The translations under genes and the position numbers were made by a program. From NCBI GenBank assembly GCA_963920665.1, contig OY987267.1:22196001-22260000 (forward strand): a DNA stretch of 64,000 nt, in the 5' to 3' direction. Under the pieces are notes generated by a model. It worked only from the letters and a program-made list of their open reading frames with translations. It searched no databases and was not told the DNA's origin. This DNA comes from Straminergon stramineum (lineage: Eukaryota; Streptophyta; Bryopsida; Hypnales; Calliergonaceae). Numbering within the stretch: position 1 is the stretch's first letter; every line of letters starts with the position of its first letter. Below, piece by piece: positions 5,363 through 26,618 of this stretch.

Positions 5363-5370
5363 GCTGCCAA
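5363..5370. repeat. left 8-bp target site duplication of the giant hAT element
   Basis: GCTGCCAA directly before the CAGGG terminus. It matches GTTGCCAA at 26611-26618 in 7 of 8 positions. An 8-bp duplication is diagnostic of hAT transposition. Confidence 0.8.
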
Positions 5371-5389
5371 CAGGGTTGTTCTGTCGAAC
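5371..5389 (+). repeat. left terminal inverted repeat of the giant hAT element
   Basis: CAGGGTTGTTCTGTCGAAC. It pairs with the right end at 26592-26610 with mismatches at positions 3, 12, 14 and 17 only. TGTCG repeats follow at 5381-5455. Confidence 0.75.
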
Positions 5390-6575
5390 GTGTTTTGGGG
5401 TTTGGGTGTCGAGTTGTTCGTCTGATGTCGCATGTCGTATAAGACGAGTGTCGCATATACAAGACAAATTTGACGAGCGCAAAATTAGGGTTTAGGATTT
5501 TCGGGTAGGGCAGCCAAAATTTTTATCTTACGTGGCGGGTTGTCAACAATGACGTGGAAAGCTTTGACCAAGTCACCATAGGTGACTGCGGGTGGGGCGC
5601 GTGCGGGTAAGGTGGGGCAACCGCGGGTCCCAAAATGAGGGCGACTTTGGCTCCAACCCAGGGCGACTGAGGGTGTAAAGGCGACCGCGGGTGTAAGGAA
5701 AAGGGCGATCTTGGCTTTATCCCATATGCAAGGAATTTCTTTTGTTCCGTGGATGATAAGAACTTCTAATATACGACATAAATACAATTGTCCATCTTTG
5801 AAAATTGGGTCCCAATTCCCAAAAGAGAGATCTTACTGAGTCCTCATACCGGAAATGAGTATTTTTGTGAGGAGAAAGGCAAGTACATCACATCACGGAG
5901 TTCCACTGGAGATGATTTTCATACTCACTAGTCCATCCGTTAAAGGTTAAGAACAACCTCGTGTGCCGTTGCAATTGCAAACATGGATATAACAACCATT
6001 TCAATCTTGCTCACGATTTAGGATCCTTCAGTTTCCATGTGCTATTGCATTCTCCTAAGCCTTAAATTAAGTATTTCACATTCTGTGGTCATTCACTCAT
6101 TCATAGGAGCCTCCGAGTTCTACATGTTTTTATTACATATGGTTGGGAATTTCTAATTCAAATTTTCTACTCCTATTGAAGTGTAGAAGCCAATATCGCA
6201 ATTGGATATAATAATTACACCAAAAATAGATACAAAAACAAGAAAAAAGTAAGGATAATTAGTATTACTGTATTTATAAGTTGTACACACTAATAGAGTA
6301 GTGACCCAATCTTATAAATGAACTTCTACTTCAATTGTACTTCCATGAACTTTGTTAAGATCTCCACGTCTATACCTGTAGAAGTCCACACTAAAGACAT
6401 TGAACAAAACTTTGTAATTCTAACACTATCATGCTTTCATACTAAAGTAGATACTACACAAAACTCATCTATAGGCTATTTGCCTATGAACTTAAGCTAG
6501 AAAACTTCAACACACCAAAATTATGCAAAAGCATTACATTACCACTTCACTACCTCTAAATCTATATTTATAAAG
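5390..6575. other. left subterminal region of the giant element
   Basis: TGTCG-rich stretch to about 5480, then a small GC-rich array (listed separately), then AT-rich sequence up to the end of the transposase frame. A short ORF at 6318-6500 (+) has no recognisable family and is left out. Confidence 0.5.
5578..5705 (-). repeat. GC-rich oriented array, left terminal copy
   Basis: A few degenerate copies of the unit GCGACTGCGGGT, at 5583, 5622 and 5680 among others. Read from inside the element towards the left terminus the unit is ACCCGCAGTCGC, so it faces outward. Confidence 0.65.
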
Positions 6576-9500
6576 TTATGGTGAAAATGTGTAATCACTA
6601 GGCACCTCATTAGTGTTAGGGTCAGAATCATCATCCGACTCCTCCCCCCTATCATTATCATCACAGTTATCATTCTCGTCGTCCTCCCTTCGTACTCGTT
6701 CATTTTGCACTTCATGTTCTACCTCTAAATTCACGTTCCGCACTTCAGTATCCACGACGCCATCGCCGCTAGTTTGCACCAATCGTTTAGTCAACCTCAA
6801 TGCATCTCTTGTTCCATCAAGGTTGGATGCAGGATGTTGTCCGCCTCTACTGGATTGCCCGATGTTTCGATTGGAATTGGCTTCACCCATGATGAATCTT
6901 TGGAAAACATGGTTCTGTCGTTTGGGATTTCTTTGTAGCCTCTCCTACGTCTTCCTCAATCGCTTTTTCTGTCCTCTTGTACCTTCACGCACGAGCAAGG
7001 ATGATTCTCCAGGGCTAGAAATAGAGGAGGGTTGAGTGGGTTGCGAAGCTGAAGCATGGCCTTCATTATCAATTGTCCTAAGAGGACTATTATGCAAGGG
7101 CGGCCTAGTCACACGAGTTGGTATAGACCTAGTCGCCCTAGCATTGTTTGCGTTTCCTCCTCCACTTAAGGGCACCGTACGATTCCGGTTCATAATAGCT
7201 TGCAAGGGCAAGTCTGAATCATATTCCACATTTTTTGTTCTTAAGGGGCTCCGTAATGGAGAAAGTGGAACGCTTGTATGCACAACATCTTCGACATGTG
7301 TTGGCGGTGTTGCCTCCTCTTGCCTTTCATTTACCTCAGCAACTCGAGCGGCACTTCGTAGGTTCATTACCCTTGTAGAACCCTGATCTACAACATTTGG
7401 AGATCTTGTTTCCTCAACTCTTATGGGCATTGGACTATGTATGCCTTCATTGGGGTTGTTGGGACTACTTGCCCGAGTTGGTCATGAATTTATTGGAGGA
7501 GGTACATTCCTATCCCTAGTAGAGAAGTAGGGTTGCAAGGGCCTTCGCGGTGCACGTTGAATCTCCTCCTCCTCAGAGTAGTACGTATTATTCTCAACTG
7601 TAAATGTATTTCCATAGTTGTGTCTCCGTGGAGGACTCTTTTCTCTACGACTCAGTCCTGTCCAAATATTTCCATGTAGACGCTCTTCTGCCAACCTAAT
7701 GTTCTCATTAGCTCGAGCCCTTCTGACTGGGTCGCCATCCCTTGATGATCCTGTACCTAATGGCTCCTCATTCATTTCCGAGGTATTTCCATCCACAAGG
7801 TACTTTTCGTAGAACATTGCAGGATTGCGTCCACGTTTCTCACGTTCAAGTTTACTGTTGGTGTAGATATACACCAATGCTTCCGCCTTGGATGTGGTTA
7901 GGCGATTTTGCACTTTATTGTGCACAAACGAATACATGCTCCAATTCCTTTCACATGATGATGCTGAGCACGTCAAAGATAGAACTTTCATTGCAATTTT
8001 GGGGAGAACATTAGCACCCACAAGATTCCACCATTGATGAGGCATTAGTTTACATTGTGTAATATCAGGAGCCTCTTCTAAGGGGTCAAAAGGACCTGTC
8101 TTCTCTTCGAACTGCATGAGCTCCTGCAATGCCTCCATGTATGATAATCCCAATGACTTGCTCATTTTTCGAAGCACCCGATTTAAGGCTCTTTTGGCCA
8201 CACCGTCGTTACGAAGGGTTTCTACTTCAATCAATAAAGGATTTAAGAGTGCCCCTGCATAGTGTAGGTCTGTGAGCATCAATTTCCAACGAGCCTCGAA
8301 TTGCGTCTCAAACCTCGTTGCAGTTTCATCATTCAGAAAAAAAGGTTTGTTTCTCAAGCTCCACACATGCTCTTGAAGAGTCTTCATAACCAACCAAGGC
8401 TTAGGCATTGTCGGGGCTTTCCCATCAAACACTCGGAGAGCAATAATGACGGGCTCCACCATGTGCAAAAAATTCTCGCACTCCACCTAAAAAGATTCCG
8501 CATGAATGTCATTCCGCGCTATACGGGCTCACGCACTCAATATATCTCCATTTTGGCGACGTTCCAAACTAGCCTCAAATTGCACATATGTCTCATCCAT
8601 TATCACTTGCATCAATGCTGACTTGCACTCCACCACACGTGATATCATGAGGAAGTTCACTGCAAAGCGTGTTTTAGAAGGCATTCGCAATGCCTTGTCC
8701 GGGGAGTACTTTCGGAAGAGAGCCAATGTGGAATGGTACCTCTTGATGTACTTTACTATCTGCATACAACGTCGTACTATTCTCGTCACCTTGACATCCT
8801 TTGCCCAGTCTTCCAAAAGCAAGTCCAAAATGTGTGCTGCGCATCCTTGGGTATACATGTGAGGATATTTCTCTTGTAACGCCTTCAAAGTCCTCGTCAT
8901 GACAGCGGCATTGTCCGTACATAGTTGGACAATGTTTTTGGGGCCAACCTCTTCTATGTATTGCGCCATCATATTGGTTGTGTACGCAATGTCCTTTTTC
9001 TCCCCCGTGGTGTCCACCGATCCAAGAAACACATCCCCCACAGGACACACGAGCATTAAATTTAGTAATGGACGGCTATTAGTATCAAACCAACCATCCG
9101 AACAGATAGTCGCTCCATAAACTTCGATAGAGTGCTTTGTCCGCTCAGTGACCATTTTAGAAACACTTTCTTTCTTTGGCTCTATCATTCTTGTACGCAA
9201 AGCATTGTATGAGGGCGGTTGGTATCGTAGTCCTGATGCCGCTGTCTCTTTCACTGCTTTTACAAAGGCAGGATGGCGCGCAACATTGAACGCGATGCTA
9301 GCCTCATAAAAAAAGGAAGCCCACATGGTATCTAACTTTGCTCTCGTGCTACTTTGTAATGCCTCATCTATGCTAGTTTGCCTAGAAATGGAAGGGTTAT
9401 TCCTCCTTCTCAAAATTGTTTGAGGAGTGGAATCTACTGAATCGGTAATAGGGAGCATTGGTTCATTCGTAGCACTAGGCTCCTTTGACCTCTCCCTATC

Positions 9501-9854
9501 CCCCTCCAACATAGGCTCAACCATAGTCTCATCTACAACATCAAATTCTGGAACCTCCTCATGCATTTCTTCAAAGCTCATTTCCTTCGGAACAACCCCA
9601 CCACAAGTCCTAAACTTTTGCAATACTGCCCATGGGATTTTCTTACATTGCTCCGATGCAGTCCTGCCGCCAAATTCAAAGTGACAAAATGCCCGCTTTT
9701 GTACAAATACGGAGGTCCACCCATAGAAAACACATGTTCGTGTGTTTCCCGCAAATTGATGGTCAATGTCTACAACCAACCAAGGGTCCCACTCCTTCGT
9801 GGCTCTCCTTGTATCGTTAATGGTAGTCTTCCTCCCCTCACCCCGACTAGCCAT
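6576..9854 (-). pseudogene. hAT transposase, four in-frame stops, long C-terminal tail
   Basis: One continuous frame from ATG 9854 to TAA 6576-6578 (1092 codons) broken only by TGA 8529-8531 (codon 442), TAG 8487-8489 (456), TGA 7482-7484 (791) and TAG 6945-6947 (970). There is no frameshift. Domains in order are a degenerate BED zinc finger at about 20-85 (second Cys of CxxC replaced: CVFY), the RNase H-like core with CSDGW (Asp253), CTDNA (Asp314) and CAAHILDLLLED (C338-H341), and the C-terminal dimerisation segment with SSCERNWS (Glu635) and FVHNKVQNRL. These are the hAT catalytic D-D-E residues and all are present. About 420 codons of low-complexity, Ser/Pro/Arg and then Asp/Glu-rich sequence follow, unusually long for hAT. 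All four stops are one transition away from common sense codons, consistent with methylcytosine decay. The protein is unlikely to be active. Confidence 0.9.
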
Positions 9855-10064
9855 ATTGTTCCTCGCCTATGAGTTCTTCAGACAATATTATCATATGAAT
9901 CAAAGCCTTGATTTAGAAAAAAGAATGGCAAAGCCACTTGCTTTGAACGGTCTTTTAAACCACACAAACCAAGTCGTTGCCCTTCAAAGATCCAAACATC
10001 CGCAAGAAGCCTCTTTCGAAGATTCAAGGCAAGAGTTCATCCCTGAAGCAAGGTGAAAACCACA

Positions 10065-11197
10065 ATCCGTGTCGCGCCCCTTAGTGACACTTACTACCTT
10101 AAGCTCACTTTCCAAACACTTAGCACCTTAGTGCCACTAAGGTTCACGCTCTCCTAACACTGCACATGCCACGCACCCACAATGTTAGGTTCCAACTCAA
10201 GTCACGGGGTTCCCCACTCCTCCGTGACTCCCAATCCTTTCCTTCCAATACTTAATTCCCACAAGACACCGGACATGTCATTTGATGATATGGGGCGGAA
10301 CTTCCATTGATGTCCAAGCACTCGGTGAGGCACTACTCCCACCGGTGCTAACCGCCCTTGAATGGGACCCAACTCCCTACTAGGCCCAACCCAACTCATT
10401 TCGGGACTCACTAATCGGGACTCACCAAACGGGACTCACACCATGGCCTAGTGTGGAGTGGGACACCACCCAACCGGTATCAAGGAGTGCACAAGCACTC
10501 CATGGTAACACACAAGTGGTGGTGAGGCTCCAACACTAACCTCACCACTCGGGGCCACTTAGGCTCACCATGGCACCATCCGGGAGTGAGGAGGGAGACC
10601 ACCCCTCCTCTTAGTACTCTCTGCGGAATTCGGCAGCCCCCCCCCATACTAGAGGTCACCGAGAACCCCCAAGATGCACCCCATCTTGGAAGACCACCCA
10701 TTTCTCCCGATTCGCATTACTTTGGGACTCCCGAACTTCCACCCGGCATAACTTTGCGGTCCGGGATCCAAATCGCACATGCGACCCCATTTTCGACATC
10801 TACGCGACGCATAGATGCCGATGGACTACTCACTTGCTCCATTCGGACAAGTACTCACAAAGATATTTCCCTCTAAAGATTCGGGACACTCCCGGCGTGG
10901 CCAGGGCACTCCCGGCGCGTCCGGGACACCCCCAACTTTGAACGCCCATAACTTTTGACTCACAAGTCCAAATCACGCGTTCTTTGGACGGCTGGAAGCA
11001 TCTTCTCAAGACCTTTCCAAGCATGTATCACATGCCCCCAAATTCGTCTGGATCAGAGCGCTACCTCGCTCTGATCGCTCGGGACTCCTAGTCCCCCTCA
11101 CCTCATCTCTTGCAAGGCTTGGGGAGTCACCCCCAATGTCCCCCTTGCTCACCAAGGTGGCACAGGCACACCTTGTGATGAGGGTCGTGACAGTCCG
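10065..11197. mobile_element. solo LTR (10070-11192) with 5-bp target duplication
   Basis: It begins TGTCGCGCCCC at 10070 and ends GGGTCGTGACA at 11192. The two ends are imperfect inverted repeats with canonical TG...CA. Flanks are ATCCG (10065-10069) and GTCCG (11193-11197), 4 of 5 identical. No coding domain or second LTR is present, so this is a 1123-bp solo LTR. It contains a 9-bp stem (ATCAGAGCG/CGCTCTGAT) near 11055-11080. It inserted about 215 bp upstream of the transposase ATG and therefore postdates the giant element, separating the transposase from its GC-rich array. Confidence 0.65.
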
Positions 11198-11296
11198 GGC
11201 CTTCAGCTTTATACTACCGTCCTGCTAGCACCACAAGTCGCCCCCTGAGAGCTAGAATGGATGCAGGAAACGAACGACATCGTAACAGGCACACTC

Positions 11297-11640
11297 GCCC
11301 CGTAGGTGACTGCGGGTTGACGGTTTGCACTAGGAGCGCGCATGCAGATCAAAGGGCGACTGCGGGTCCAAGGGGGGCGACTTCAGGTCGAAAAAGAGGC
11401 GACTGCGGGTAAGGGGGGCGAGTGCGGGTGGAGGGGGGGGTGACTACGGATAGAAAGAGGCGACTGCGGGTCCAGGAGGGGCGACTGCGGGTCCAGGGGA
11501 GGCGACTGCAGGTAGAAGGGGGCGATTACGGGTAGAAGGGGGCGATTGCGAGTAGAAGGGGGCGATTGCGAGTAGAAGGGGGCGATTGCGGGTCTCAAGA
11601 GGCGACTTCGGGTACTTGAAGGGCAACCGCGCTTACGCTT
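11297..11640 (-). repeat. GC-rich oriented array upstream of the transposase
   Basis: Tandem degenerate copies of about 20-25 bases, each containing GGCGACTGCGGGT or GGCGATTGCGGGT. In the direction of the transposase gene the unit reads ACCCGCAGTCGCC. Removing the solo LTR would place the array about 315 bp from the transposase start. Confidence 0.8.
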
Positions 11641-11689
11641 TAGGACCCAAGGCCATTTTTGTTATCCCGTTAGCGTTCCATCGCTGAGT

Positions 11690-12125
11690 TTCTAGATGAA
11701 AGTCATCCTAGTTTAGATAGAGATTTTATTAAACCCTAAACGCTATCCAAAGGTTTCACATGGTATTTATAGATACTTCAAAAAAAGATTTTCGGAGGTA
11801 TGGTCATAGACTTAAAGAATGCAATTTTTTTTTAAACAACCACATGAAGGGAAACTCATTTCAAATCCATTCCAACAAACTTAATAAAAAATAAATAGAA
11901 TTAGCTTGTACTCAAATGTGGAAAAAATTAAGAACTTTCTCTTTCAAATTAAAAAGAAAAATGGGGGACAACATTGGTTGATCAAACCATATAAATAGAA
12001 TCCACAACTCAAATGTATAACTTCCATTTCTCTATCAATTCCAAAAGTATTCTTTTGAGTACCTTTTTATGATGTTTTTTCCCAAATTATAAATCTCAAG
12101 AAGAGTCCATACATTCACGAGGTGA
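11690..12125 (+). repeat. dispersed repeat, copy 1 (copy 2 at 51536-52030)
   Basis: Shares ordered blocks with 51536-52030 in direct orientation: GATGAAAGTCATCCTA, then TCATAGA.TTAA.AA, then TCATTTCAAATCCATT, then an AT-rich stretch, then CTCAAATGTATAACTTCCAT against CTCATATTGTACAACTTTTAT. This is a family of low-copy AT-rich interspersed repeat present both inside and outside the giant element. No coding capacity is visible. Confidence 0.6.
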
Positions 12126-12511: not shown

Positions 12512-14070
12512 TTATACTCCATCCATTTCCCCTTGTTCTTCCCTTTTCTTCTTTTCCAATTCTATTTGGGCTCTTGCCACTCTCTCTTCCCTCTTCAAAA
12601 GAGTCAGGTCATGGTTCCACATCTTATTTTGGATCCACCACTTCTTGAACAATGACATGAACTTGATGTGTGCCTTCGGCCACGACATCTTTTCCTCCAA
12701 CTTCTGTTCCAATCTTTTCATAGACGCTAACTTCATCTTCAACTTCTCTATTTCCGTAGTGGATGACAAATCTTCAACATCCACAGACAATGAATCCGAT
12801 TGCAACGACCGGTCAATAGGATCTGCATCCTTCATCTCCTTCAAGCGGTTCAATGTCGATCTTGCCTTTTCCACACCTCCTTTTTCAATGGCAAGGTTGT
12901 TTTCTTCCATCCTACATTTTCCCATTATTGTTTGAAGTCGTTCATCCATAACAGGATTGACATTTGAACTGGAACCTCCATCTTCTCCCTTATTGAACTT
13001 GAAGTAAAATTGTTCTAGTTGTTCCATTTCTCTTTGTTGGGTTGCCAAATGAGTTTGTCTAGCTTAAATTAGTTCTTTGAGGGTGCCCACATCCTCAACC
13101 TGAATCTCTTGTGCACTTCGCTTCTCGATGATCTCACACTCCCTTTTTTTTCTTCAAGATCCTTTAAAAGCATCTCCAACTCCACTTTATAGGATTCTTT
13201 CGTCCGCCGTTTATTGTCTTCTCCAAGTACACCTTGATGTTCTTGTTCCATTTCACGCAATCCTTCCATGGAAGGCAAATTCATCAAGGTCAAAGGAATC
13301 TCTTCTTCGGCTTCACTCTCCCCATCCAACCTATCTTCATTAATTTCTTGCAAGCGAGCTTGCACGTAATGGAACACTTCGTCATCTTCGGGACGACGGA
13401 CCCCTATCGGTTCCACAGACATAAAAGGTTCTCCATCCGTTGGTGTGGTCCGTTGCATGTTGCCTTCTTCGGATACCACCAATGCTAAGTTTTCTTCCAT
13501 TGATGTATCTTCCATCCTGTCCCTAGGTTCAGGCAATGGCTCTTCATTGGAGTCTGATTCTCCAGTTGACGTTGACCAAACATAATCCTCATCTGCTACT
13601 CCTTCTATAATGTTCTTTTTGGGCCCTAGCCCATCCCGAGGATTATTTGAAGGACCCGCTCTTGGAATGTCTTTTGTAGTTGGAAGCGTAACATTCTTGG
13701 ATGTCTTGAAGGTCATCCAATCTACCGTTTTCCCCAATTGTAACTCTGCATATACCATTTGGCATATGCCCATTGAGACTTCACTCTGTGGAATTTTTCG
13801 CTTTCTGTACAATGCTCGGTACACTTCAATACATCTCTGGACAAATGCATCATCCTTGCAGTAATGAAGATTTGCTTGGTTTTGCTTCACATGGTGAATG
13901 TGTTGATGGTAAGGGAAGAGCTTGTCCATATGGCACCAATCCACAAATAACTTGCAAGTTGTCAAGGTCCAATCGGAATTTACATGACGCCATCCCCGAT
14001 ATGCCTTAGCCGCTGGGTCAAGAAGGGCGCGTCGTTGCCTGCTATGGCGATCTCCTTTCTTCTTCGTCAT
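12512..14070 (-). pseudogene. WCH-domain paralog B, frameshifted
   Basis: ATG at 14070. The frame is open to 13069 (333 codons). Around 13140-13155 a run of eight A (gene strand) marks a one-base shift; in the shifted frame the reading continues through a TAA at 13064-13066 to 12512, giving about 500 codons like the intact paralog at 20620. The N-terminal ~110 residues carry the shared domain: KAYRGWRHVNSDWTL, LFVDWCHMDKLFPYHQHIHH, NLHYCKDDAFVQRCIEVYRALY, MVYAELQLGKTVDW. An acidic linker and a coiled coil follow (LEMLLKDLEEKK; EIEKLKMKLASMKRLEQKLEEK; TLLKREERVARAQIELEKKKRE). No known family is recognised. The conserved Cys/His spacing may bind a metal, which is speculative. The shift in a homopolymer could be an assembly error, but the separate TAA argues for true decay. 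Confidence 0.7.
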
Positions 14071-14284
14071 CTTGTCGTATCACTCTAGCGTAAAGAGAAC
14101 TAGACTTTTGATGATAATATAACCGAAGAAAAGAATTCGTAAACGTGGAAGCCACAACACGTGTAGATGCCCAAACTTCCAACCCACGAATCGGTAGTCA
14201 AACGCTTCAAGGCGGATGAAAGGCGCGGTGCGACGAAGGAAGTGACGACTTGGGAATCCAGTATCCCCTTAAATACCTGAAGTC

Positions 14285-14760
14285 GCCTAGGGCGCGTGCG
14301 GGAAGAGGGCGCATGCGGGTCTTGGGTGACCACGGGTCTGGATCCCACTATCCAGAAACTGCCATTCAGGAAAAATTAGAGTTTTTGGAAGGAGACCTCG
14401 GGTGCAGGGTGACCGCGGGTATAGGGGGGCGGTTGCATATAGGGCAACCATAGGTCTTTTCCTAGGTGACCTCGGGTAATGGGGCGACCGCGGGTACAGG
14501 GGGCGGCTGCATATAGGGCGACTACAGGTCACTTCCTGGGCGACCGCGGGTACAGGGGCGGCTGCATATAGGGCGACCACAGGTCATTTCCTGGGCGACC
14601 GCGGGTAATGGGGCGACCACAGGTACAGGGGGCGGCTGCATATAGGGCGACCACAGGTCATTTCTTGGGTGACCGCGAGTCTCAGATTCCAAAAGGTCTT
14701 CCCCAGTTCATGACGATGGGAGCGGCTGCGTATGGGGCGATCGAGGGTTAGGGGCGCCAA
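14285..14760 (-). repeat. GC-rich oriented array upstream of paralog B
   Basis: Copies of GGGCGACCGCGGGT alternating with a GGCGGCTGCATATAGGGCGACCACAGGTC-like segment; the higher-order unit repeats several times. The array starts 214 bp upstream of the paralog B ATG. In gene orientation the unit reads ACCCGCGGTCGCCC. Confidence 0.85.
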
Positions 14761-15650: not shown

Positions 15651-15921
15651 AATTTGAATAGGGTCCTCCTTTTGATACATCAAGGGGATTTAAAACACAT
15701 TTGAAGGGGTGAATGAATATTGAATTTATTGAAGATTAAAAAGTTCGGAAATGACACCTTCAATGGTTTATATCTTACAAGTGCAAGGTTTAGGAGTTCA
15801 AACTTTTTTATGACATATAATGAAAAGCAAATCACATATGTTTATCATTTTATCCACCCTAAAAAATAGAAGTACATTACTTTTGGGGTGGCATACATGG
15901 AGAAGGTCCATGGTTTTTCTA

Positions 15922-15957: not shown

Positions 15958-16159
15958 GAAAACCCTCTTCAATTTATCTAATTAGTCTTACTATAATTTT
16001 GTATTTACAGACTGATTTTGTAGTATTAACTAGCTATCAACATTGAAGGACAGGTCAGTTGTAGTCAGTGAAGGACGCAATTAAGTCTGACTTCATTAGT
16101 ATTGGAGATGGCTCACATCTTCTGCTACGGTGGTTTCTGGACTGGTGTGACTTTAAGAT

Positions 16160-17460
16160 AGAGGCGATTGCTAGTGGGGGGCGAGTTCAGGTCCTGGGCG
16201 ATTGCGGGTGGGCGCTTGGTCTTCTGGCTTGCTGTTGTTGAGTCCAATTTGGTGGAATGGGGCGACTGCGGGTGGGGGCGAGTTCAAGTCCTGGGCGATT
16301 GTGGATGGGGGTTGGATTTCTGGCTTATTGTTGTTGAGCCGAATTTGGTGGAATGGGGTGCGACTGCAGGTGGGGGGCGAGTTCAGGTCTTGGGCGACTG
16401 CGGGTGGGGGCAACTTCAGGTCCTGGTGGATTGGAGCCCAATTTCGTGGATTGGGGGCGACTGCAGGTGGGGGGCGAGTTTAGGTCTTGGGCGACCGCGG
16501 GTGGGGGCGACTTTAGGTCCTGGTGGTTTCGAGGCCAATTTGGTGAATTGGGGGCGATTGCGGGTGGGGGGCGAGTTCAGGTCCTGGGCGACCGCGGGTG
16601 GGGGTGACTTCAAGTCCTGGTGGTTTGGAGGCCAATTTGGTGGATTGGGGGCGATTGTGGGAGGGGGGCGAGTTCAGGTCCTGGGCGACCGCGGGTGGGG
16701 GCGACTTCAAGTCCTGGTGGTTTGGAGGCCAATTTGGTGGATTGGGGGCGATTGCGGGAGGGGGGCAAGTTCAGGTCCTGGGCAACCGCGGGTGGGGGTG
16801 ACTTCAGGTCCTGGTGGATTGGAGCCCAATTTCGTGGATTGGGGGGCGACCGCGGGTGGAGGGCGAGTTCAGGTTCTGGGCAACCGCGGGTGGGGGCGAC
16901 TTTAGGTCCTGGGCGATCGCGGGTGGGGGCGACTTCAAGTCCTGGTGGTTTGGAGGCCAATTTGGTGGATTGGGGGCGACTGCGGGAGGGGGGCGAGTTC
17001 AGGTCCTGGGCAACCACGGGTGGGGGCGACTTCAGGTCCTGGTGGATTGGAGCCCAATTTCGTGGATTGGGGGGCGACCGCGGGTGGAGGGCGAGTTCAG
17101 GTTCTGGGCGACCGCGGGTGGGGGTGACTTCAGGTCCTGGTGGTTTGGAGGCCAATTTGGTGGATTGGGGGCGACCGCGGGTGGGGGCGCGGTCTTCTGT
17201 TTTGGTGGTTTCCAGACTAATTTGGTGGAGGGGGGGGGGGGCGATTGTAGGTGGGGGCGACTTCAGGTCCTGGGTGACTACGGGTGGGGGCACAGGCTTC
17301 TGTTTTGGTGGTTTCGAGCCTAATTTCGTGGATGGGGGGGGCGACCGCGGGTGGGGGGCGACTTCAGGTCCTAGGCGATCGCGGGTGGGGGCGACTTCAA
17401 GTCCTGGTGGTTTCGAGCCCAATTTCGTGGATTGGGGGGTGACCGCGGGTGGGGGCGTGC
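16160..17460. repeat. largest GC-rich array, higher-order period 97 bp
   Basis: A minisatellite. The marker CCAATTT starts at 16535, 16632, 16729 and 16826, an exact 97-bp spacing. Each 97-bp unit contains two GGCGACCGCGGGTGGGGG submotifs, GACTTCAGGTCCTGG, and a segment GGAGGCCAATTTGGTGGATTGG. The unit reads GGCGACCGCGGGT on the plus strand throughout, so it faces left and, unlike the other arrays, does not point at an identifiable gene. Long open frames on both strands here are by-products of the repeat. Confidence 0.9.
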
Positions 17461-17519
17461 CTTCCAATCCAAAGAAGTTTTAATAAGTATAACGAGTTCA
17501 ACTTTTAACATCCAAGAAT

Positions 17520-17851: not shown

Positions 17852-18740
17852 CCGTCTCAACCCTCATAGTACATCTCCGAAATCTTGGGAATCAAATGAT
17901 GTTTCCTGCTCACCTATTGGAGTGACCAAACTTGATGTTTTGTCTCTTTGGAGAGAGATTATTTTTTGTATACAAAAGTTGAAGTAAACCTTGGATAGCT
18001 TTTACAAGAACATATTGATTGTCCTCCATAGAATACTTAGCCAAAGAAATTGTACATTGTATAAGGATTTGCATGTGACGGTTCTTCATCTTTAAACAAT
18101 GGGGTGGCTAATTTTGAGTCCATAAATGATAGAAACTCTCTATATAGGATAGAAGAGCATCTCATCATCTTGTAAATTTTGTAGTGTAAGAAGGGGTGGT
18201 CCTCCTTGGAAAGTTTATTTCCGAAGACTGCATCTATAATTTGTAACTTAACAATTTACAACATCTAAGAAGGATGATTTCGAAGGTGTCCCATTTGTCC
18301 GTTTAGAAATTTCATGTATTTTGTGGGTGACCAATTTTGAAGGATTGGCATGCGAAAAAAAGAAATGATAGCATTCAAACACCCTTGATGGTTTGAACAA
18401 TGTCTTCATCAAGGATAACAATCTTTTGACTTGATGTGCATATGCTTCATTTATTGTTCATTTCAATGTGCTCTACAACATGTATGTTTGCATTTCTGAC
18501 CTCTTCCACCCCAAAAAGGGTTTAGGGTTGTGTAAAAAGCCAAATTCATGTTCACTGTAGAGCAAACTTGAAGAAATTAGAAAAAGACTTTGGACACTTC
18601 TAAAGTAACCTCTATAATATCATTATGCAAAGGTAGAATGTAAGTATTTCAAGTTCTCCCTTTTTGTTTCAATAGAAGTCAATCATGTCCCGTACTTTTA
18701 TATTTCTGATTCCCTTTTTCCGTTTAGGCCCATTCCGTTT

Positions 18741-18940
18741 NNNNNNNNNNNNNNNNNNNNNNNNNNNNNNNNNNNNNNNNNNNNNNNNNNNNNNNNNNNN
18801 NNNNNNNNNNNNNNNNNNNNNNNNNNNNNNNNNNNNNNNNNNNNNNNNNNNNNNNNNNNNNNNNNNNNNNNNNNNNNNNNNNNNNNNNNNNNNNNNNNNN
18901 NNNNNNNNNNNNNNNNNNNNNNNNNNNNNNNNNNNNNNNN
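18741..18940. other. assembly gap, 200 N
   Basis: Exactly 200 N, probably a placeholder size. It removes the N-terminal lobe of the kinase that follows. Confidence 0.99.
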
Positions 18941-18942: not shown

Positions 18943-19677
18943 TTGAATCATCCGGCCATTATAAAATTCCTAGCTGTCCATGACCAAACAATGAAAGTAT
19001 ACACTTTGTGGTGGAATGGTGGTAATTTCAAAGAGTTGCTTCATTTGAATGAGAAGGTGGTGTCGCATGCGGAATGGCATGAAATCAAGTTGGTCAAGCA
19101 ACTTATAGGCCAACAACAAAAAGAAATTAGCCTCTTTCGAAGACACAAGGCGAAGTTGGCGTGGGCCCTGGTTTATGTGACAAGTCTCGTGCACAATGCT
19201 GGGGTGCTGCACAATGACTTGTCACCTGTGAACATATTATTGCATTATCCCCCCTTCTCGGATGAAGAGATCAACATTGGGATTTGTAATTGGGGAATTG
19301 CAAGTCGTATTCAAGAAGGAGCTCCCTCGCATTTTGGATATAAAAAACAGGAAAAACTTGATGCTGAGAAGATGGGCTGTTGGTGGACAGCTCCAGAGTT
19401 GTTCTATTTATTTGGGCCAAAGGGTTCAGATATGAGTTTAGATGTGATGAAAGCGACCTACAAATATTCGGTGAAGTCCGACTCTTATTCTATTGGAAAG
19501 TTGGCCCAACGCATGAACATAGAACACATGGTTGAATACGACAAGGACTTATTTAGAAATTATGAGTCATCAAGGTACTTTGCCATGAAGTTACGTGAAC
19601 TAGCTGATGCTGATGTTAACAAAAGACCAACATGTGCGCAAGTGGTGGACCTCCTCATGAGTAACCATGGTTCATGA
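18943..19677 (+). CDS. atypical protein kinase, C-terminal 244 residues (5' end in gap)
   Basis: The frame opens straight out of the gap and ends at TGA 19675-19677. Visible are LNHPAIIKFLA (end of helix C, beta 4), the catalytic loop HNDLSPVN in place of HRDxxxxN, CNWGIA where DFG is expected, WWTAPELF for the APE motif, KSDSYSIG for the helix F Asp, and KRPTCAQVVDLL for the C-terminal Arg. The catalytic-loop Asp and Asn are kept but Arg is Asn, and the metal-binding DFG Asp is Asn, so activity may be weak or absent. The fold is clearly Ser/Thr-kinase-like. It sits between two GC-rich arrays, on the same strand as the intact paralog C. Whether the short sequence left of the gap belongs to the gene cannot be decided. 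Substrate and role are unknown. Confidence 0.75.
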   Translation: MNHPAIIKFLAVHDQTMKVYTLWWNGGNFKELLHLNEKVVSHAEWHEIKLVKQLIGQQQKEISLFRRHKAKLAWALVYVTSLVHNAGVLHNDLSPVNILLHYPPFSDEEINIGICNWGIASRIQEGAPSHFGYKKQEKLDAEKMGCWWTAPELFYLFGPKGSDMSLDVMKATYKYSVKSDSYSIGKLAQRMNIEHMVEYDKDLFRNYESSRYFAMKLRELADADVNKRPTCAQVVDLLMSNHGS

Positions 19678-19980: not shown

Positions 19981-20319
19981 ATCGCGGTCACGGGTTTGGG
20001 ACCCGCGGTCGCCCCAAACCCGCACGCACCCCCAGTCGCGATTGCGCCAAACCCGCGGTCACCCAGACCCACATGCGCCCCCAGTTTGGGTTCCCCTCAC
20101 CCGCGGTCGCACCAGCCCCATTGTCGCCCCACCTTACCCGCAGTTGCCCCTAGACCCGCAGTCACCATCACCCGCGGTCGCTGGCGGTGGTCCTAGACCC
20201 GCGGTCACCTTCCCGACCCGCACGCGCCCCACCCCCTTGGACCCGCACGCGCCCCATCCAGAGCCATGCTCGCCCTGAGGCGACTGCGGGTACAAAATCA
20301 TACCCTAAACCCGTAGTCT
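19981..20319 (+). repeat. GC-rich oriented array upstream of paralog C
   Basis: Copies of ACCCGCGGTCGCCCC, ACCCGCACGCGCCCC and variants on the plus strand, the opposite orientation to the arrays to its left. It ends 300 bp before the ATG of paralog C, and in gene orientation reads ACCCGCGGTCGCC. Confidence 0.85.
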
Positions 20320-20619
20320 CCCATCTTTCCCTTTTGCGCCTTGTCTTTTATCCACCTGGAAGTGGCTAATTGCAAGCTTGAGAGGGGAGGTGGGTGTTGT
20401 GAGGAGGATATTCTATGTCTCCTCATGTCACTTTCATCCATTGATTGTAAATCACACCGAATTGTTTGAAACTTGATTGTGATTGTAAATGTTCATGTTG
20501 ATGTATTTGTAAATGTGAATTACCACGAGGTAATAGATTTAAGTTTGGACAACCACGGTTTTAGGCTTGGTATATTTGGCATAGTATCTGAGTAGAATTG
20601 ATCGTATAGATTGAGCACT

Positions 20620-22083
20620 ATGGAGAATGAGCCCCCACCATTGACACCTGCCACAATCAAACGCCTTACACGACAAGAGATGAAGCTCATCCGCGACAAG
20701 GGTCGGAAACAGTCCGGTAAAATTCACAAGAAGCGTGTGGCCATTTTGATCCATCCAAAGATTAAGGCATTTAAAGGTTGGAGAAATGAACCTGAGCCTT
20801 GGAGTTACAAAACTGTTTGCAAATACGTGGATTGGTGCCACATCAGCAAATTATTTCCCTTGTGTCGGCACAAAGAACATCTGAAGCAAAACAAAGTAAA
20901 TCTTGCATACTCGAAGGACGAGGGCTTCATACTTAGATGTTGTGAGGTGTGGAAGCACTTGTATTTGGAGGACTCAACTTACCGAAACGACAATTTCTGT
21001 TTCTTTCTTGTGAGAATGGTGTATGCTGAATATGTGTTGAAGAAGGAGGTGGATTGGTCAACATTGAAGGAGGTCCCTATTGCGATCATTCCGGAGACTA
21101 CAAAAATTTTACCACCAAATGAACATGTGGATGTAAAGAAGATGTTATCCAAGGTGAAGCGTGGGAAGTCATTTGTTTGCGATGAAAGCGTGGTTTGGTC
21201 AGAGACTTCTAGCTTTGATCTACACACCCATGAATACGATGGACATTCTTTCCACAGCGATGAGGAAGAGGTTGCCATACAAGAATCTAGGCCGGCTGTG
21301 AATGTGGGAGTCGACCAAAGTGGACAATCAGCTCAAGAGCCCATCATAGTACAAGATACGGATGAAGAAGGCATGGATGATGGGGTGGCTAGGAGAGTGG
21401 ACCCCATTTTGCGAGAGGGTGACGGGAGTGGTGGAGGAAGCGATTCAGAAAATGAAGAGGCAATGTTGCTTGCCAAAATAGAAAGTGCAAAATTAGCATT
21501 GCGTGCAAAGAACGAGCAATTGAAAACTTTGAAGGAGCAAGAAATGAATCCCACTTTCGTAGAGGTGTTGAAGCAACAGTTGAAGGCCATAACGAACATC
21601 ATTGAAGAGAATGACAAGGGCTTCCATTCCTTCAAAAGAAATCGCGATTTTTATTTGAAGGAAATGAAGAGTGGGAAGGTGCATAAAATCGACCATTATT
21701 TGATATGGGAATCAAAACTCGAAACCCTTGTCCGCAAACGTCAGCAGGCACAGAATGAAAGGCGAAGCCTAGAACTTCAAATAATGGAGAAGAAGAAAGA
21801 ATATTACGAGGCCACCGTCCAGCACGTTCCAAAAGTAGAGCTTTTGGCTTCTTCCTCAACATATGGTAGTGTTGCTGGAGAAGTAACATCGCTTGAGAAG
21901 TTGGTGAAGTTCCATGAGCAAAGATTACCATTGATGGTATCGGAGTTGGAAGCTTTGAGGGCAGAAAGTCATTTTTTTTCGGATTGGTATAAGTGGAATA
22001 GAGCTAGCATAGGGAAGTTTGATGCAGAATTACAACAAATGGGTCCGGAGCCCATTTTGAAGGACTACCTCAACACAAAATAA
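20620..22083 (+). CDS. WCH-domain paralog C, intact, with coiled coils (487 aa)
   Basis: Start chosen at ATG 20620, the first ATG in the frame. The stop TAA is at 22081-22083. Residues about 34-148 form the shared domain: KIHKKRVAILIHPKIKAFKGW, EPEPWSYKTVCKYVDWCHISKLFPLCRHKEHLKQNKVNLAY, FILRCCEVWKHLY, MVYAEYVLKKEVDWSTLK. An acidic linker follows (about 190-285), then long predicted coiled coils: AKIESAKLALRAKNEQLKTLKEQE, LVRKRQQAQNERRSLELQIMEKKKEYYEA and SLEKLVKFHEQRLPLMVSELEALRAE. No intron or stop interrupts it. No known family is recognised. The basic lead-in plus conserved Trp, Cys and His could be a DNA-binding or metal-binding module, which is an inference. It shares 300 bp of spacer with the array upstream. 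Confidence 0.75.
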   Translation: MENEPPPLTPATIKRLTRQEMKLIRDKGRKQSGKIHKKRVAILIHPKIKAFKGWRNEPEPWSYKTVCKYVDWCHISKLFPLCRHKEHLKQNKVNLAYSKDEGFILRCCEVWKHLYLEDSTYRNDNFCFFLVRMVYAEYVLKKEVDWSTLKEVPIAIIPETTKILPPNEHVDVKKMLSKVKRGKSFVCDESVVWSETSSFDLHTHEYDGHSFHSDEEEVAIQESRPAVNVGVDQSGQSAQEPIIVQDTDEEGMDDGVARRVDPILREGDGSGGGSDSENEEAMLLAKIESAKLALRAKNEQLKTLKEQEMNPTFVEVLKQQLKAITNIIEENDKGFHSFKRNRDFYLKEMKSGKVHKIDHYLIWESKLETLVRKRQQAQNERRSLELQIMEKKKEYYEATVQHVPKVELLASSSTYGSVAGEVTSLEKLVKFHEQRLPLMVSELEALRAESHFFSDWYKWNRASIGKFDAELQQMGPEPILKDYLNTK

Positions 22084-23336: not shown

Positions 23337-25826
23337 CTAGTCAATTACATTTGGGTTGTTTTGAGAGCCACTTCCTTCACCTTCGTAGGTCGATGCTTCC
23401 CCAACCCCTAGCTTTCGCTTTGCACGGGTTCGTGAAGCTGGTCCGTCTGCCTTCAAAATTGATTGCAACACGTTGGAGTCCTGTAGAGCTTGGAGGGTCC
23501 TTGTTGTTTGCGGAGAATGTGCTTCCAACAAGTAGTCAAGTGCTTGACTTTGGTAATATGGTCCGTACGTAGAGTCTAAGTAAGCCATACTAGTCAAGTC
23601 TTCTAGGGAGGCACTATCATTTTGATTAGCCACCCTTTCTCCTTCTAAATTCCAACGGTGTCGTTGCGGATGAGGACCCCACTTGAAGTTTGAGGAGGTC
23701 TTGTCCCAATATCCACCAAGGCATTGGAAGAAGAATGCCCTCCTCCCTTCGTTTTGTGGCCCCTTTCCCATGAGCCTTGGTGCAACTCTGGCAATTTCGT
23801 CTAGGTCTGTTTCCCAATTCAATTGCGAGCTAGCAGGTCCTTTTTCTTGATCATGTTGTTCTTCTCGCCAACTCCAAACCAAATCTCGGCCCCACAAGGT
23901 TGTATCAACCGTAGTATCACATGTGTGTTCCCAAGAAGGAGGCATGTAGGTCGTCAAGTTGAACATGGTATATAGGCAATCATGGAATGGTGCTGAACAA
24001 ATCACACAACGTTGTCTAATCAAGCATTGTGTGATGAGACATTGGGGGTGGTATACATGTGCACAAGATCCTAGTGCCCAACCCCCTTCGGAGCCAAATT
24101 GTTCAAGACATATGGGGCATTTGGTATGGTCCAAAACAAAAGGTGCAGGCTTGGGCCACAATAGCATTCGTTTCTTCTCTTCTATGTGGCTAGACATTTG
24201 GTTTTCGTGGTCCCAACCATTTTTGCTCCAATCTATGACCTCCTTTTGTGGCAATTCCACCATGCACATGTTATTGGGAAACATGTCCTCCAACAATGCC
24301 CATGACGTCAATCCATTCTCACGTTTAGGAGCATTTGCAACAAAGTTTCTAGAAACTTTTTCTAGCTCCTTCGCAACTTGTTGGGATCTATCCACGGAGA
24401 GAATGCAGGCGACCTTCCAATGGTAGTATGTGGTAGTCAACTCAACCAACTTTCTTCGAAGCATCTTATTTTCTTCTTGAAGTCCATGGTCTTTCTTCAA
24501 TTGAATAATTGATGGAACTACAGGAAACGAAAGAGAGTCTTGGGTCCCATTGAGGTCAATTGTGTCATTGGTAGTATATCTTGTGACAATAGTAGGAAGT
24601 GTATTTGGAATGATGGGGGAGCGTCTAGTGCACTTGGCAAGAGGAGAACGCTGAAGGATATGGTTGGTAAGGTCCCCCACAACCTTGTCCACATTTTGAA
24701 GGTTCTGCTCAACAAAGGCGTCATCCATATCCGACAAAGTGAAAGTGTCAGGGTCTTTCTCATGGAGGCGTTGCAGTTCTGTAGTTTGTTGAGAGATGAG
24801 TGTACTTTTTTGTTCACACTCACATCGCAATTTCCTCATTTCATTTTGTAGTGAAGAAATTTCAACATCTTTGGTCTTGAGGAGGTCCAGAGCTTTTGCC
24901 AAAGTCATAATGTCATGGCTTGAGCCCATTGTTGATGGAGAAATGGGAACACGGTTAGTTTCTTCCATAGCCGTGTCCTCATCGGGCCCATAGTCGAAGA
25001 CATCATTTGTGCGTTGTGTTGGCAGTGATGGGTTAGGAACTATAGTTGGAATCGATGCGGGTCCCACTTGTGTTGTTGAATGCCGTACTCTAGATGGTTG
25101 CCTTGGTCGTTGTCCCGTAGATGTCGCGGGTCCTTCTACAACTTCATTTTGAACCTCATTGGGGCAAACAGATTGCTCCACGATTCGTATGACCCTATGG
25201 ACGCGCGTACCATCAGAGTCATCATCTTCTTCAGACTCCTCAGTGTCAACCTTAGTGGCAGGGGTTTGCGTTTTGTATGCACTTCGAATAGGACCGAGTC
25301 CCCCCTCAGGAAAAGCTAAAACTCCTTTTGGGATGAAACCACTCTCTGGACGAGTGACATACGTACTTCCCTTGATTGTGCTCCAATCAACCTCTTTGTT
25401 TAGAGCGACCTCAGCATATGCTCCTCTAGCAAGGAAGAGGGGGACCTCGTTCCTATCTACAAAGGCGGTTTTGTAGAGGACTTGCCACAATTCAATGCAT
25501 CTTTGAAGGAATGTTGGATTCTCACAGTACTTCAAGTTGGCCTTATTGGTGTGCCGATTATAATGATGACGCCATAAAGGAAAGAACTTGCCGATGTGGC
25601 ACCACTCGATGTAGTCTTCACAGGTTTGTATTGTCCAAGGCTCTGGTTCTTCATTCCAACCCTTAAAAGCAAGGTGGGCTTCACTATTGAGCACGTGCAA
25701 TCGCTTCCGATGAATAGTGCCCCTACGCTTGCGATGTTTGTCTTTGGCAGCCTTCCGTAATGCCCCGGCGGTCTGTGCAACAGCGGATATAGGCAATGCC
25801 CTCGCATTGTTAACTCCAGTGGCCAT
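23337..25826 (-). CDS. WCH-domain paralog D fused to a RING-H2 finger (829 aa)
   Basis: ATG at 25826, frame open to 23337. Residues about 38-152 carry the shared domain (HRKRLHVLNSEAHLAFKGW, EPEPWTIQTCEDYIEWCHIGKFFPLWRH, NKANLKYCENPTFLQRCIELWQVLY, GAYAEVALNKEVDWST). A variable linker, an acidic stretch (EESEEDDDSDG) and coiled coils at about 308-358 and 440-465 follow. A RING-H2 finger lies at 570-610: C570-x2-C573, C588-x-H590-x2-H593-x2-C596, C607-x2-C610, with all eight ligands present. This predicts E3 ubiquitin ligase activity by family knowledge. The last ~220 residues (LVWSWREEQH, GYWDKTSSNFKWGPHPQRHRWNLEGERV) are unrecognised. The frame is fully intact although the neighbouring transposase is heavily decayed, so it may be under selection or recently acquired. 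Confidence 0.8.
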   Translation of the reverse strand: MATGVNNARALPISAVAQTAGALRKAAKDKHRKRRGTIHRKRLHVLNSEAHLAFKGWNEEPEPWTIQTCEDYIEWCHIGKFFPLWRHHYNRHTNKANLKYCENPTFLQRCIELWQVLYKTAFVDRNEVPLFLARGAYAEVALNKEVDWSTIKGSTYVTRPESGFIPKGVLAFPEGGLGPIRSAYKTQTPATKVDTEESEEDDDSDGTRVHRVIRIVEQSVCPNEVQNEVVEGPATSTGQRPRQPSRVRHSTTQVGPASIPTIVPNPSLPTQRTNDVFDYGPDEDTAMEETNRVPISPSTMGSSHDIMTLAKALDLLKTKDVEISSLQNEMRKLRCECEQKSTLISQQTTELQRLHEKDPDTFTLSDMDDAFVEQNLQNVDKVVGDLTNHILQRSPLAKCTRRSPIIPNTLPTIVTRYTTNDTIDLNGTQDSLSFPVVPSIIQLKKDHGLQEENKMLRRKLVELTTTYYHWKVACILSVDRSQQVAKELEKVSRNFVANAPKRENGLTSWALLEDMFPNNMCMVELPQKEVIDWSKNGWDHENQMSSHIEEKKRMLLWPKPAPFVLDHTKCPICLEQFGSEGGWALGSCAHVYHPQCLITQCLIRQRCVICSAPFHDCLYTMFNLTTYMPPSWEHTCDTTVDTTLWGRDLVWSWREEQHDQEKGPASSQLNWETDLDEIARVAPRLMGKGPQNEGRRAFFFQCLGGYWDKTSSNFKWGPHPQRHRWNLEGERVANQNDSASLEDLTSMAYLDSTYGPYYQSQALDYLLEAHSPQTTRTLQALQDSNVLQSILKADGPASRTRAKRKLGVGEASTYEGEGSGSQNNPNVID

Positions 25827-26018
25827 CAATGATTGTCGTGTCTAAGGCTCAAAAAACTCGTTTGGGAGTTTAGGTGGTCCACAACTAGTAAGGTAAGAAG
25901 GGTGGATGAATGTAATAAATAGTAAATAGTCAAGGTTCACGCATGTAGCCACTAAAGGATACAAGACAAGAAGCCTCAATGAAAGGTGCCCAAAAGGTCT
26001 TGGGCAAGTGGATAAATA

Positions 26019-26290
26019 GGTGGGGCAAGCGCGGGTGAGAGTTGGTCATGGGGCGGGTGCGGGTGGGCGACCACCGGTTGAACCCGCGGTCTCCAGAGGG
26101 CGCGCACAGATCTCGGGGAGCGACTACGGGTGTGGTAGGGCGCATTCGGGTCCGAGGAGGCGATTGCGGGTGCAGGGGTGCGTGCGGGTCTTTTGGGGGG
26201 CGACTACGGTTACAGGGGCGCGTGTGGGTCCCTTGGGAGGCGACTACGGGTCTTTTGGGGCGACCGTGGGTAATTGTGGGGTGTTACTTC
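26019..26290 (-). repeat. GC-rich oriented array upstream of paralog D
   Basis: Degenerate copies of GGCGACTACGGGT and GGGCGCGTGCGGGTC. It begins 192 bp upstream of the paralog D ATG; in gene orientation the unit reads ACCCGTAGTCGCC. Confidence 0.8.
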
Positions 26291-26344
26291 TCTTTGGGTT
26301 CTCACTTCGTGTCTTTGCTTCGCAGCTTGCCACGTACTCGACAC

Positions 26345-26425
26345 CCGAGGTTGCCCACCAGCTTGAACCTGAAGTTGCCCTACCCGTGGTCGCCCACACC
26401 CATGGTCGCCCAAACTCGCATGCAC
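26345..26425 (+). repeat. GC-rich array, right terminal copy (orientation flipped)
   Basis: Copies such as CCCGTGGTCGCCC and CCCATGGTCGCCC on the plus strand, opposite to the adjacent array at 26019-26290, so they face the right terminus. This mirrors the outward-facing array near the left terminus. Confidence 0.65.
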
Positions 26426-26432
26426 CCCTTTA

Positions 26433-26472
26433 GGATGCTACGTGGAAGACACGTGTCTGCCACATGGCATCC
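26433..26472. repeat. 40-bp near-perfect palindrome near the right end
   Basis: GGATGC at the left pairs with GCATCC at the right, centred on ACACGTGT (which includes a CACGTG G-box core). About four symmetric mismatched pairs. It lies between the terminal array and the right TIR. Confidence 0.75.
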
Positions 26473-26591
26473 AGGTGGCCTCACGGGCACGGTGAAATTT
26501 TTTTTAAAGTCAAAGGTAAGTTTGACTCTATTAGACGGACAAGAGGGTCTACTTGACGTGTTGGACGTCGTGTTTGTCGAGTTGTCGAACT

Positions 26592-26610
26592 GTCCGCCGG
26601 AACAACCATG
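26592..26610 (-). repeat. right terminal inverted repeat of the giant hAT element
   Basis: The reverse complement reads CATGGTTGTTCCGGCGGAC, 15 of 19 identical to the left end. The T at position 3 (left end G) is the only mismatch in the first 11. Confidence 0.75.
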
Positions 26611-26618
26611 GTTGCCAA
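26611..26618. repeat. right 8-bp target site duplication
   Basis: GTTGCCAA, immediately after the right terminus, against GCTGCCAA at 5363-5370. Confidence 0.8.

Follow-up and report, generated by a model that had tools for sequence, protein, structure and literature searches.

The locus considered here raises the question of whether two facing hAT-like ends, separated by about 21 kb, bound a single mobile unit, and what the genes and GC-rich repeats between them may do. It lies in a 64,000-nucleotide stretch of Straminergon stramineum DNA (contig OY987267.1), which was analyzed as a whole and is referred to as the window. hAT elements usually measure a few kb, and a giant cargo-bearing hAT class in plants was not found in a literature search of limited reach. 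We consider it highly probable that window positions 5371-26610 are one copy of a multi-copy, ~21-kb hAT DNA transposon together with its gene set (Table 1).

Table 1 Features of the element in the window copy (window coordinates)
Feature	Position	Strand	Remarks
Left target-site duplication GCTGCCAA	5363-5370	.	Identical to 26611-26618 at 7/8; sister copies also have 8-bp duplications
Left terminal inverted repeat CAGGGTTGTTCTGTCGAAC	5371-5389	+	
Left subterminal GC-rich array, GGGCGACTGCGGGT-like	5580-5693	+	
hAT transposase	6576-9866	-	1,097-codon frame interrupted by 4 stops; domains DUF659 and hAT dimerisation
Dispersed repeat, inserted secondarily	10070-11190	.	Missing from copies A and B
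GC-rich array upstream of transposase	11230-11614	+	In copy A, without the 10070-11190 insertion, ~310 bp before the open frame
WCH1	12512-14079	-	Frame break, or intron, between 13069 and 13063
GC-rich array upstream of WCH1	14275-14749	+	
Three tandem copies of ~220 bp	14992-15635	.	Found in copies A and B too
Largest GC-rich array	16163-17490	+	Assigned to no gene
200-N assembly gap	18741-18940	.	Copy A has ~1.39 kb here: kinase upstream array and 5' half
Protein kinase gene, 3' part	19024-19677	+	Open over 575 aa in copy A
GC-rich array upstream of WCH2	19985-20323	-	
WCH2	20602-22083	+	493-aa open frame
WCH3	23337-25841	-	834 aa between stops; has WCH domain, coiled coil and RING finger, and a conserved region at the C terminus
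GC-rich arrays: upstream of WCH3 (+), right subterminal (-)	26023-26412	+/-	
Right terminal inverted repeat, CATGGTTGTTCCGGCGGAC on minus strand	26592-26610	-	
Right target-site duplication GTTGCCAA	26611-26618	.	

Element ends and target-site duplications

Re-scanning of the window returned the ends as first noted, with CAGGGTTGTTC at 5371-5381 and its near-reverse complement, CATGGTTGTTC on the minus strand, ending at 26610 (15 of 19 positions over the end), and with flanks GCTGCCAA and GTTGCCAA that agree at seven of eight positions in this copy. The terminal inverted repeats are short and begin with CA, with changes to the terminal bases in a few copies. By themselves, the short end words were no commoner in the window than expected by chance, both for CAGGGTTGTTC with up to two mismatches (18 matches vs 19.8 expected) and for TGTCGAGTTGT (19 vs 15.2 expected). 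The latter does occur close inside each end, at 5407 and 26575, as the preliminary description had it, and adds nothing to the inverted repeat because both occurrences are on the same strand. Within the window, the 5371/26610 pair was the sole CA..TG pair to combine a match of at least 15/19 between ends with at least 7/8 between flanks; 40 first-order Markov control windows contained seven such pairs altogether, none of them with CAGGG. The element termini are CAGGGTTG ends.

Both ends were mapped in 21 copies from the same 326-Mb genome, the window copy included. The proposed flanking duplication was borne out in 19 of these, matching at 8/8 positions in 14 and at 7/8 in five, with no match in the other two. 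This count excludes two of the eight copies fetched first (L038 and L041, with no left end within the 4 kb fetched) and draws its next 14 copies from positional pairing of listed ends or WCH3, not from a random sample; it includes the two of these 14 in which both ends are present and the duplication is absent. In all eight right ends fetched first, the element terminates at the equivalent of position 26610.

These copies bear on the alternative that the locus is nested, or consists of two or more separate insertions whose ends face each other by chance. The internal arrays could, on such an account, be the ends of former nested copies, and one secondary insertion does exist (10070-11190). However, matching 8-bp duplications link the ends in 19 of 21 copies, and a permissive scan of the window element for CAGGGTTGTTC-like ends recovered only the outer pair and no internal one, so that this origin is vanishingly improbable; the sister copies refute it. 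The 10070-11190 segment itself is a later insertion and not an original part of the element, because it is absent from both other copies read through.

A gene set repeated across the genome

Copy A, which was read whole, measures 21,250 bp, is collinear with the window copy and ~92-97% identical to it outside the tandem arrays, and is flanked on both sides by CATGAGTC. The lack of any second locus that combines these termini with comparable cargo had been named at the outset as the observation that would speak against the element; the opposite was found, and the search for further copies with the same termini and gene set returned many loci across the genome. WCH3, the largest cargo gene, is present in at least 54 copies (of 1,749 first-look candidates, 54 were scored), with amino-acid identities of 95-97% for the other 53, together with at least 76 kinase copies (best 76 of 807 candidates), at least 40 left ends (best 40 of 853) and at least 40 right ends (best 40 of 792). 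Left-end DNA occurs at 39 other places among the matches listed, at 96-98% identity.

The listed features, window included, form 13 left-WCH3 pairs and nine left-right pairs within 40 kb, two overlapping sets in which every pair has the expected orientation; with left ends placed at random, left-WCH3 pairs within 25 kb averaged 0.087 and never exceeded 3 over 2,000 trials. All 22 WCH3-kinase pairs within 12 kb among the listed features are on opposite strands, with a spacing of 3.58-3.68 kb in 17 of the 22 and none on the other side. The unit comprises fixed ends, 8-bp target duplications, a hAT transposase, a kinase and WCH1-3, and its order is repeated.

Transposase and cargo genes

The hAT transposase reported for the interior was substantiated by DUF659 (E = 2.1e-36) and Dimer_Tnp_hAT (E = 3.3e-7), both of which pass the Pfam cut-offs, and its relatives reach up to 69% identity across the whole query. 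A Cys/His pattern was seen by eye in the N-terminal part of transposase relatives, with one Cys replaced in the window and no Pfam BED match. Because hAT domains, CA-type ends and 8-bp duplications occur together and at many genomic loci, we assign the unit as a giant cargo-bearing hAT element, as originally proposed, an assignment also supported by the repeated ends and gene set. The transposase of the window copy is non-functional, and since it is broken, this copy could presumably move only with transposase supplied elsewhere; judging from established hAT biology, transposase from any working copy would excise and reinsert the whole unit. Among the three copies followed throughout (window copy, A and B), there is none in which all five frames are open.

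Four non-transposase genes were counted (a protein kinase, WCH1, WCH2 and WCH3), in line with the earlier estimate of at least four. The kinase of the window copy is half hidden by the N gap, and WCH1 reads in copy A as one uninterrupted frame of 522 aa. WCH1-3 have an N-terminal domain in common, and one of the three carries a RING finger. The WCH domain matched no Pfam or NCBIfam family, and WCH1-3 appear to be members of a new family. The structure model of WCH3 was poor (mean pLDDT 50, pTM 0.26); comparisons of WCH3 with the PDB, by sequence and by fold, gave matches of any weight to the RING finger only, and the WCH domain is therefore without a structural assignment. No relative of WCH or of the hAT transposase was found in the viral contigs searched.

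The cargo could alternatively be Pack-TYPE-like, consisting of host genes that were picked up fortuitously by a pair of hAT ends and travel as passengers. The kinase could plausibly have been captured from the host, and selection within the family is not clear: dN/dS was 0.38-0.73 between the window copy and copy A or B (hAT, WCH1 and kinase part), and 0.98 for hAT and 1.58 for WCH1 between copies A and B. This range (0.38-1.58) is not clearly below 1 and therefore does not demonstrate recent selection on the cargo. Chance capture nevertheless appears improbable, given that the copies read have collinear gene sets, that left end, WCH3, right end and kinase hold their order at many loci, and that WCH, hAT and kinase relatives were found together again in a diverged cluster. 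Moreover, long WCH-RING relatives remain open over ~780-930 codons at 37-64% identity to WCH3.

GC-rich arrays

The GC-rich repeat, described initially as confined to the interior, proved to be so in the window, where GGGCGACTGCGGGT with up to three mismatches has 109 matches in 5371-26610 vs 1 in the other 42.8 kb. Counts of the GC-rich 14-mer motif inside and outside the element were 110/0 for copy A and 93/0 for copy B, and scattered matches numbered 4 and 5 in two 100-kb flanks. Within the window copy and copies A and B, to which this comparison applies, the motif appears to be family-specific and is packed into dense, uniformly oriented arrays outside coding regions. Each of the five genes of copy A is preceded, within ~310 bp of its open frame or likely start, by an antisense array, that of the kinase being visible only where copy A fills the N gap; further arrays lie inside both ends of copy A. 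The subterminal motif is inverted between the ends (5580-5693 plus, 26382-26412 minus). Two diverged WCH genes carry arrays of other sequence at the same position. Diverged relatives are located 21-59 kb beyond the window and on one contaminant contig, and their arrays differ.

Comparison with known systems

Plant DUF659-type hAT elements resemble the unit in transposase domains, CA-type terminal inverted repeats, 8-bp duplications and subterminal repeats, but measure a few kb compared to ~21 kb here, where four extra genes and arrays upstream of genes are also present. The mover of Starships is a tyrosine recombinase, and no Pfam domain of a tyrosine-recombinase captain was found in the eight ORFs scanned in the window. 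The available part of the Starship source describes giant fungal transposons with multi-gene cargo, and giant size and multi-gene cargo are what the two have in common (PMC11623301). ToxhAT is presented, in the available parts of its sources, as a ~14-kb element of fungal wheat pathogens (PMC12506042, PMC11857905), likewise a large hAT-named unit with a non-transposase gene; to that extent it differs in being fungal and in its unrelated cargo, whereas the present unit is a high-copy family with its gene set repeated genome-wide. Pack-TYPE (Pack-hAT) elements of rice and maize are, in the accessible text, non-autonomous carriers of captured coding DNA, with hAT ends around coding DNA and 8-nt duplications as here (PMC8903248). 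The present unit is not of this non-autonomous type with captured pieces, as it has a transposase, albeit broken, and an ordered, repeated gene set.

VANDAL elements are Mutator-like, whereas the unit described here has a hAT transposase and 8-bp duplications and falls outside that group. According to the available portions of the sources, VANDAL/VANC systems of Arabidopsis have extra element-encoded proteins and family-confined motif arrays that differ between families (PMC5735166, PMC10398659), and share with our element dense same-orientation tandem arrays of a short motif in non-coding regions (PMC5735166). The likeness lies in these extra proteins and arrays; kinship between WCH and VANC is not demonstrated.

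Possible function of the arrays

We tentatively propose that the arrays inside both ends and upstream of the five genes may be binding sites of element-encoded proteins, likeliest WCH proteins, that act against silencing. WCH proteins would bind the arrays and keep the genes and ends of the element accessible, as VANC does for VANDAL, and the targets of the RING protein and the kinase would be silencing or regulatory proteins of the host. Conceivably, though well short of probable, this may be a giant plant hAT lineage with its own sequence-specific gene-control and anti-silencing system, in which the WCH family, one member of which has an E3-type RING finger, and the kinase co-evolve with private GC-rich arrays at promoters and ends that differ from family to family, independently of VANC/VANDAL. 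CpG transitions between copies amounted to 14.7% and 13.6% in the arrays vs 12.7% and 13.2% in the rest of the element, and non-CpG transitions to 9.8% and 8.8% vs 4.0% and 3.9%, a CpG excess of ~1.5-fold in the arrays vs 3.2-3.4-fold elsewhere; because tandem arrays align poorly, this comparison is ambiguous and does not demonstrate protected (hypomethylated) arrays.

hAT transposases bind subterminal regions, and the arrays of the same transposon might merely be transposase binding sites spread from there by tandem duplication, with WCH and the kinase in other roles. Consistent with this, the motif is subterminal and inverted at both ends, and at one locus (L001) a stretch of 0.5 kb that contains the array motif separates a WCH gene from a hAT-type end. 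We regard this explanation as rather unlikely, however, as it fails to account for the arrays that precede all of the genes, in antisense orientation in 5/5, and the biggest arrays lie far from the ends.

Significance

The best-known giant transposons with cargo are fungal. A high-copy, ~21-kb plant hAT element with a four-gene cargo shows an ordinary cut-and-paste superfamily to be capable of assembling a unit of several genes and spreading it. If the anti-silencing reading is true, the element would provide a parallel to VANC/VANDAL that arose independently in another superfamily. With private arrays whose sequence differs among related elements, the independent evolution of transposon anti-silencing becomes directly testable, and the moss host belongs to an easily grown haploid plant group that is suited to such tests.

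Termini, target-site duplications and genomic setting

The window (C5:22196001–22260000 in an assembly of 326 Mb and 59 contigs) carries two plant-like genes to the left of the element. The ends and flanking sequences proposed in the preliminary description were borne out when the sequence was re-read. Single end words were no more frequent than expected by chance; the end pair with its flanking 8-mers was the sole pair at that match level in the window, and 40 Markov windows yielded 7 pairs of equal level in all, none with CAGGG.

The 901 bp upstream of WCH3 was compared for 8 of the 53 other copies of this gene. In all eight the main matches (88–92% identical to the window) ran to the position equivalent to 26610 (...AACAACCATG), past which the DNA was unrelated. 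Two sister copies were read with their flanks, 27 kb apiece: copy A (C5:8.03–8.05 Mb; 21,250 bp) is flanked by CATGAGTC on either side, and copy B (C4:15.88–15.90 Mb), which contains 200 N, has flanks TCGGGTGC/TCGGGCGC and an altered left end, CAAGATTGTTC. Window segment 10070–11190 is a later insertion, since it is absent from both copies and pieces of it (73–91% identical) recur in the flanking 200 kb.

Six further left regions were fetched; the left end was present in four and not contained in two. Three of the four had exact 8/8 duplications and the fourth (L042) matched at 7/8, its missing base being read in L059. Among 14 further copies, selected because a left end and either a right end or WCH3 were paired in the listed coordinates, duplications were 8/8 in 10, 7/8 in 2 and absent in 2 (3/8 and 2/8). 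The preliminary description had proposed seeking other copies with the same termini and gene set; both ends were mapped in 21 copies, window included (14 with exact duplications, 5 at 7/8, 2 without), of which A and B were read through. The element has fixed ends, is flanked by duplications and is repeated in the genome along with its gene set.

The right flank of the window also holds long imperfect palindromes at 57600–59565 and 52043–52668 (71% and 76% self-complementary), possibly foldback or MITE-type elements. A dispersed repeat of ~340 bp, 70% identical, occurs in the transposon interior (11774–12107) and the right flank (51689–52027).

Copy number and co-linearity

An own-genome search with the 834-aa WCH3 frame gave at least 54 copies (54 scored of 1,749 first-look candidates), namely the window's own and 53 others at 95–97% identity across 833–834 residues; 15 of the 54 scored frames are stop-free. 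Left-end DNA was found in at least 40 places (40 scored of 853 candidates; 39 others 96–98% identical), and right-end DNA in at least 40 long matches (792 first-look candidates), with 29 short secondary matches at the same places. The kinase, queried with the copy A sequence, has at least 76 copies (76 scored of 807; 75 others at 90–96%), 21 of those scored being stop-free. These counts are all lower bounds. Every listed match falls on contigs C1–C11, which, taken with the assembly size, points to a moss that has 11 chromosomes.

By listed coordinates, 13 left–WCH3 and 9 left–right pairs lie within 40 kb, overlapping sets that include the window, and every one is in the expected orientation; left–right spans are 12.2–24.4 kb. 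Randomised left ends gave a mean of 0.087 left–WCH3 pairs within 25 kb (maximum 3; 2,000 trials). Within 12 kb, 22 WCH3–kinase pairs occur, all on the predicted side and with the two genes on opposite strands; 17 of them are spaced by 3.58–3.68 kb, and none of the listed copies pair on the other side.

Left-end pairs at C6:22469754/22485145 and C8:16107058/16122555 (fetched regions L072–L075) face outward, ~15.2 kb apart, and WCH3 pairs with identical stop patterns lie inverted at C11:16.65 Mb and C3:28.13 Mb, 8.8 and 13.2 kb apart. Both may be palindromic derivatives of the element.

Genes of the element

The transposase has DUF659 and Dimer_Tnp_hAT domains and relatives at up to 69% identity over the whole query. 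The window transposase is dead; that of copy A has internal stops too. Only the 3′ part of the kinase is visible in the window, owing to a 200-N gap at 18741–18940, where copy A has ~1.39 kb of sequence; the kinase frame of copy A is open over 575 aa (Pkinase, E 4.3e-13).

The label WCH is ours, after the invariant Trp-Cys-His of a shared N-terminal domain that has no family match in Pfam or NCBIfam. WCH3 carries a RING finger that scores under Pfam's cut-off (zf-RING_2, E 3.9e-5) and matches profiles of RING structures (E 1.5e-6). A set of 5.8 billion proteins held eight WCH relatives, every one on a contig of <6 kb.

Coordinates of genes and arrays
Feature	Copy	Position	Details
Adaptin-binding p34 protein	window	677–1357	flanking gene
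Xyloglucan endotransglycosylase/hydrolase	window	3516–4669	flanking gene; GH16 + XET_C
hAT transposase	window	9866–6576	minus; single frame, 1,097 codons, four internal stops
WCH1	window	13069–14079, shifted continuation 12512–13063	broken; one 522-aa frame in copy A
WCH2	window	20602–22083	493 aa, open; broken in A and B
WCH3	window	23337–25841	open; also open in copy A
Transposase array	A	10504–10754	frame start 10194
WCH1 array	A	13418–13868	gene 13222
Large array	A	15330–16409	window 16163–17490; no assigned gene
Kinase array	A	17912–18137	frame start 18145; window equivalent lost in gap
WCH2 array	A	20155–20478	gene 20759
WCH3 array	A	starts 26183	inside stop-to-stop frame, ~200 bp upstream of likely start (placed by comparison with window)

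GC-rich arrays

The GC-rich repeat first described as confined to the interior, GGGCGACTGCGGGT (≤3 mismatches), occurs 109 times inside the element and once outside it in the window, with 4 and 5 scattered matches in the two adjoining 100-kb flanks. Counts were 110 inside and 0 in 5.75 kb of flank for copy A, and 93 and 0 (8.2 kb) for copy B. Each of the five genes of copy A has an array a short distance upstream, predominantly antisense to the gene, and further arrays in inverted orientation lie inside both element ends. Arrays have a CpG observed/expected ratio of 0.90, against 0.60 for the remainder. When copies are compared, CpG transitions are equally frequent in arrays and elsewhere in the element; their excess over non-CpG transitions is ~1.5-fold in arrays versus 3.2–3.4-fold elsewhere, a comparison involving tandem arrays that align poorly.

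Diverged relatives

Contig L001 (CADCWO010000051.1; 4.9 kb), deposited as part of a cyanobacterial MAG, carries the gene of a WCH-RING protein (E 1e-158; best segment 36%). Just upstream of the gene, at 1531–1706, lies a GC-rich array of 8.5 copies and different sequence, with a related motif at 4581–4618; a hAT-type end, CAGGGTTGTCAAAAAGG, on the reverse strand ends at 4829, and no left end was found on the contig. L001 probably comes from a source other than a cyanobacterium, most likely plant contamination of the MAG assembly.

To the right, the 100 kb next to the window holds, all at 21–59 kb from it, a hAT transposase (37%, best segment), a WCH gene (30–37%) with a GTCCGC-type array upstream, two kinase fragments (29–32%) and two hAT-type ends. 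The end at L016:1404 is matched by an identical 8-mer at L015:1300–1307, just before CAAGGTTGTCC (flanks CATGCTCT; ends CAAGGTTGTCC/CAGGGTTGTAC). The two delimit a candidate element of 10.1 kb that includes a kinase fragment and whose terminal repeats match at 9/19 only. For the second end, CAGGGTTG at L018:8756, no convincing partner was found in this 100 kb. The 100 kb to the left gave no match to element proteins.

Mechanism and novelty

Movement would proceed via hAT transposase supplied by working copies. The arrays could tentatively be read as target sites of element-encoded regulators, given that they are element-confined, lie at genes and both ends, and differ in sequence between related elements; even so, we hold this somewhat less probable than its negation. 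The model for this reading is the VANC/VANDAL system: VANC, an extra protein of its element, binds short motifs that stand densely and in a single orientation in non-coding DNA of its own family, and VANDAL arrays and VANC proteins diverge together (PMC5735166; PMC10398659). The equal frequency of CpG transitions in arrays and elsewhere is ambiguous for, or speaks against, a regulator-target role, and the smaller CpG excess is likewise ambiguous.

A limited literature search, with subscription papers and preprints outside its scope, found no published match for the size, the four-gene cargo or the gene-by-gene arrays. The hAT superfamily itself is already known, and it is in these three features that the element would be new.
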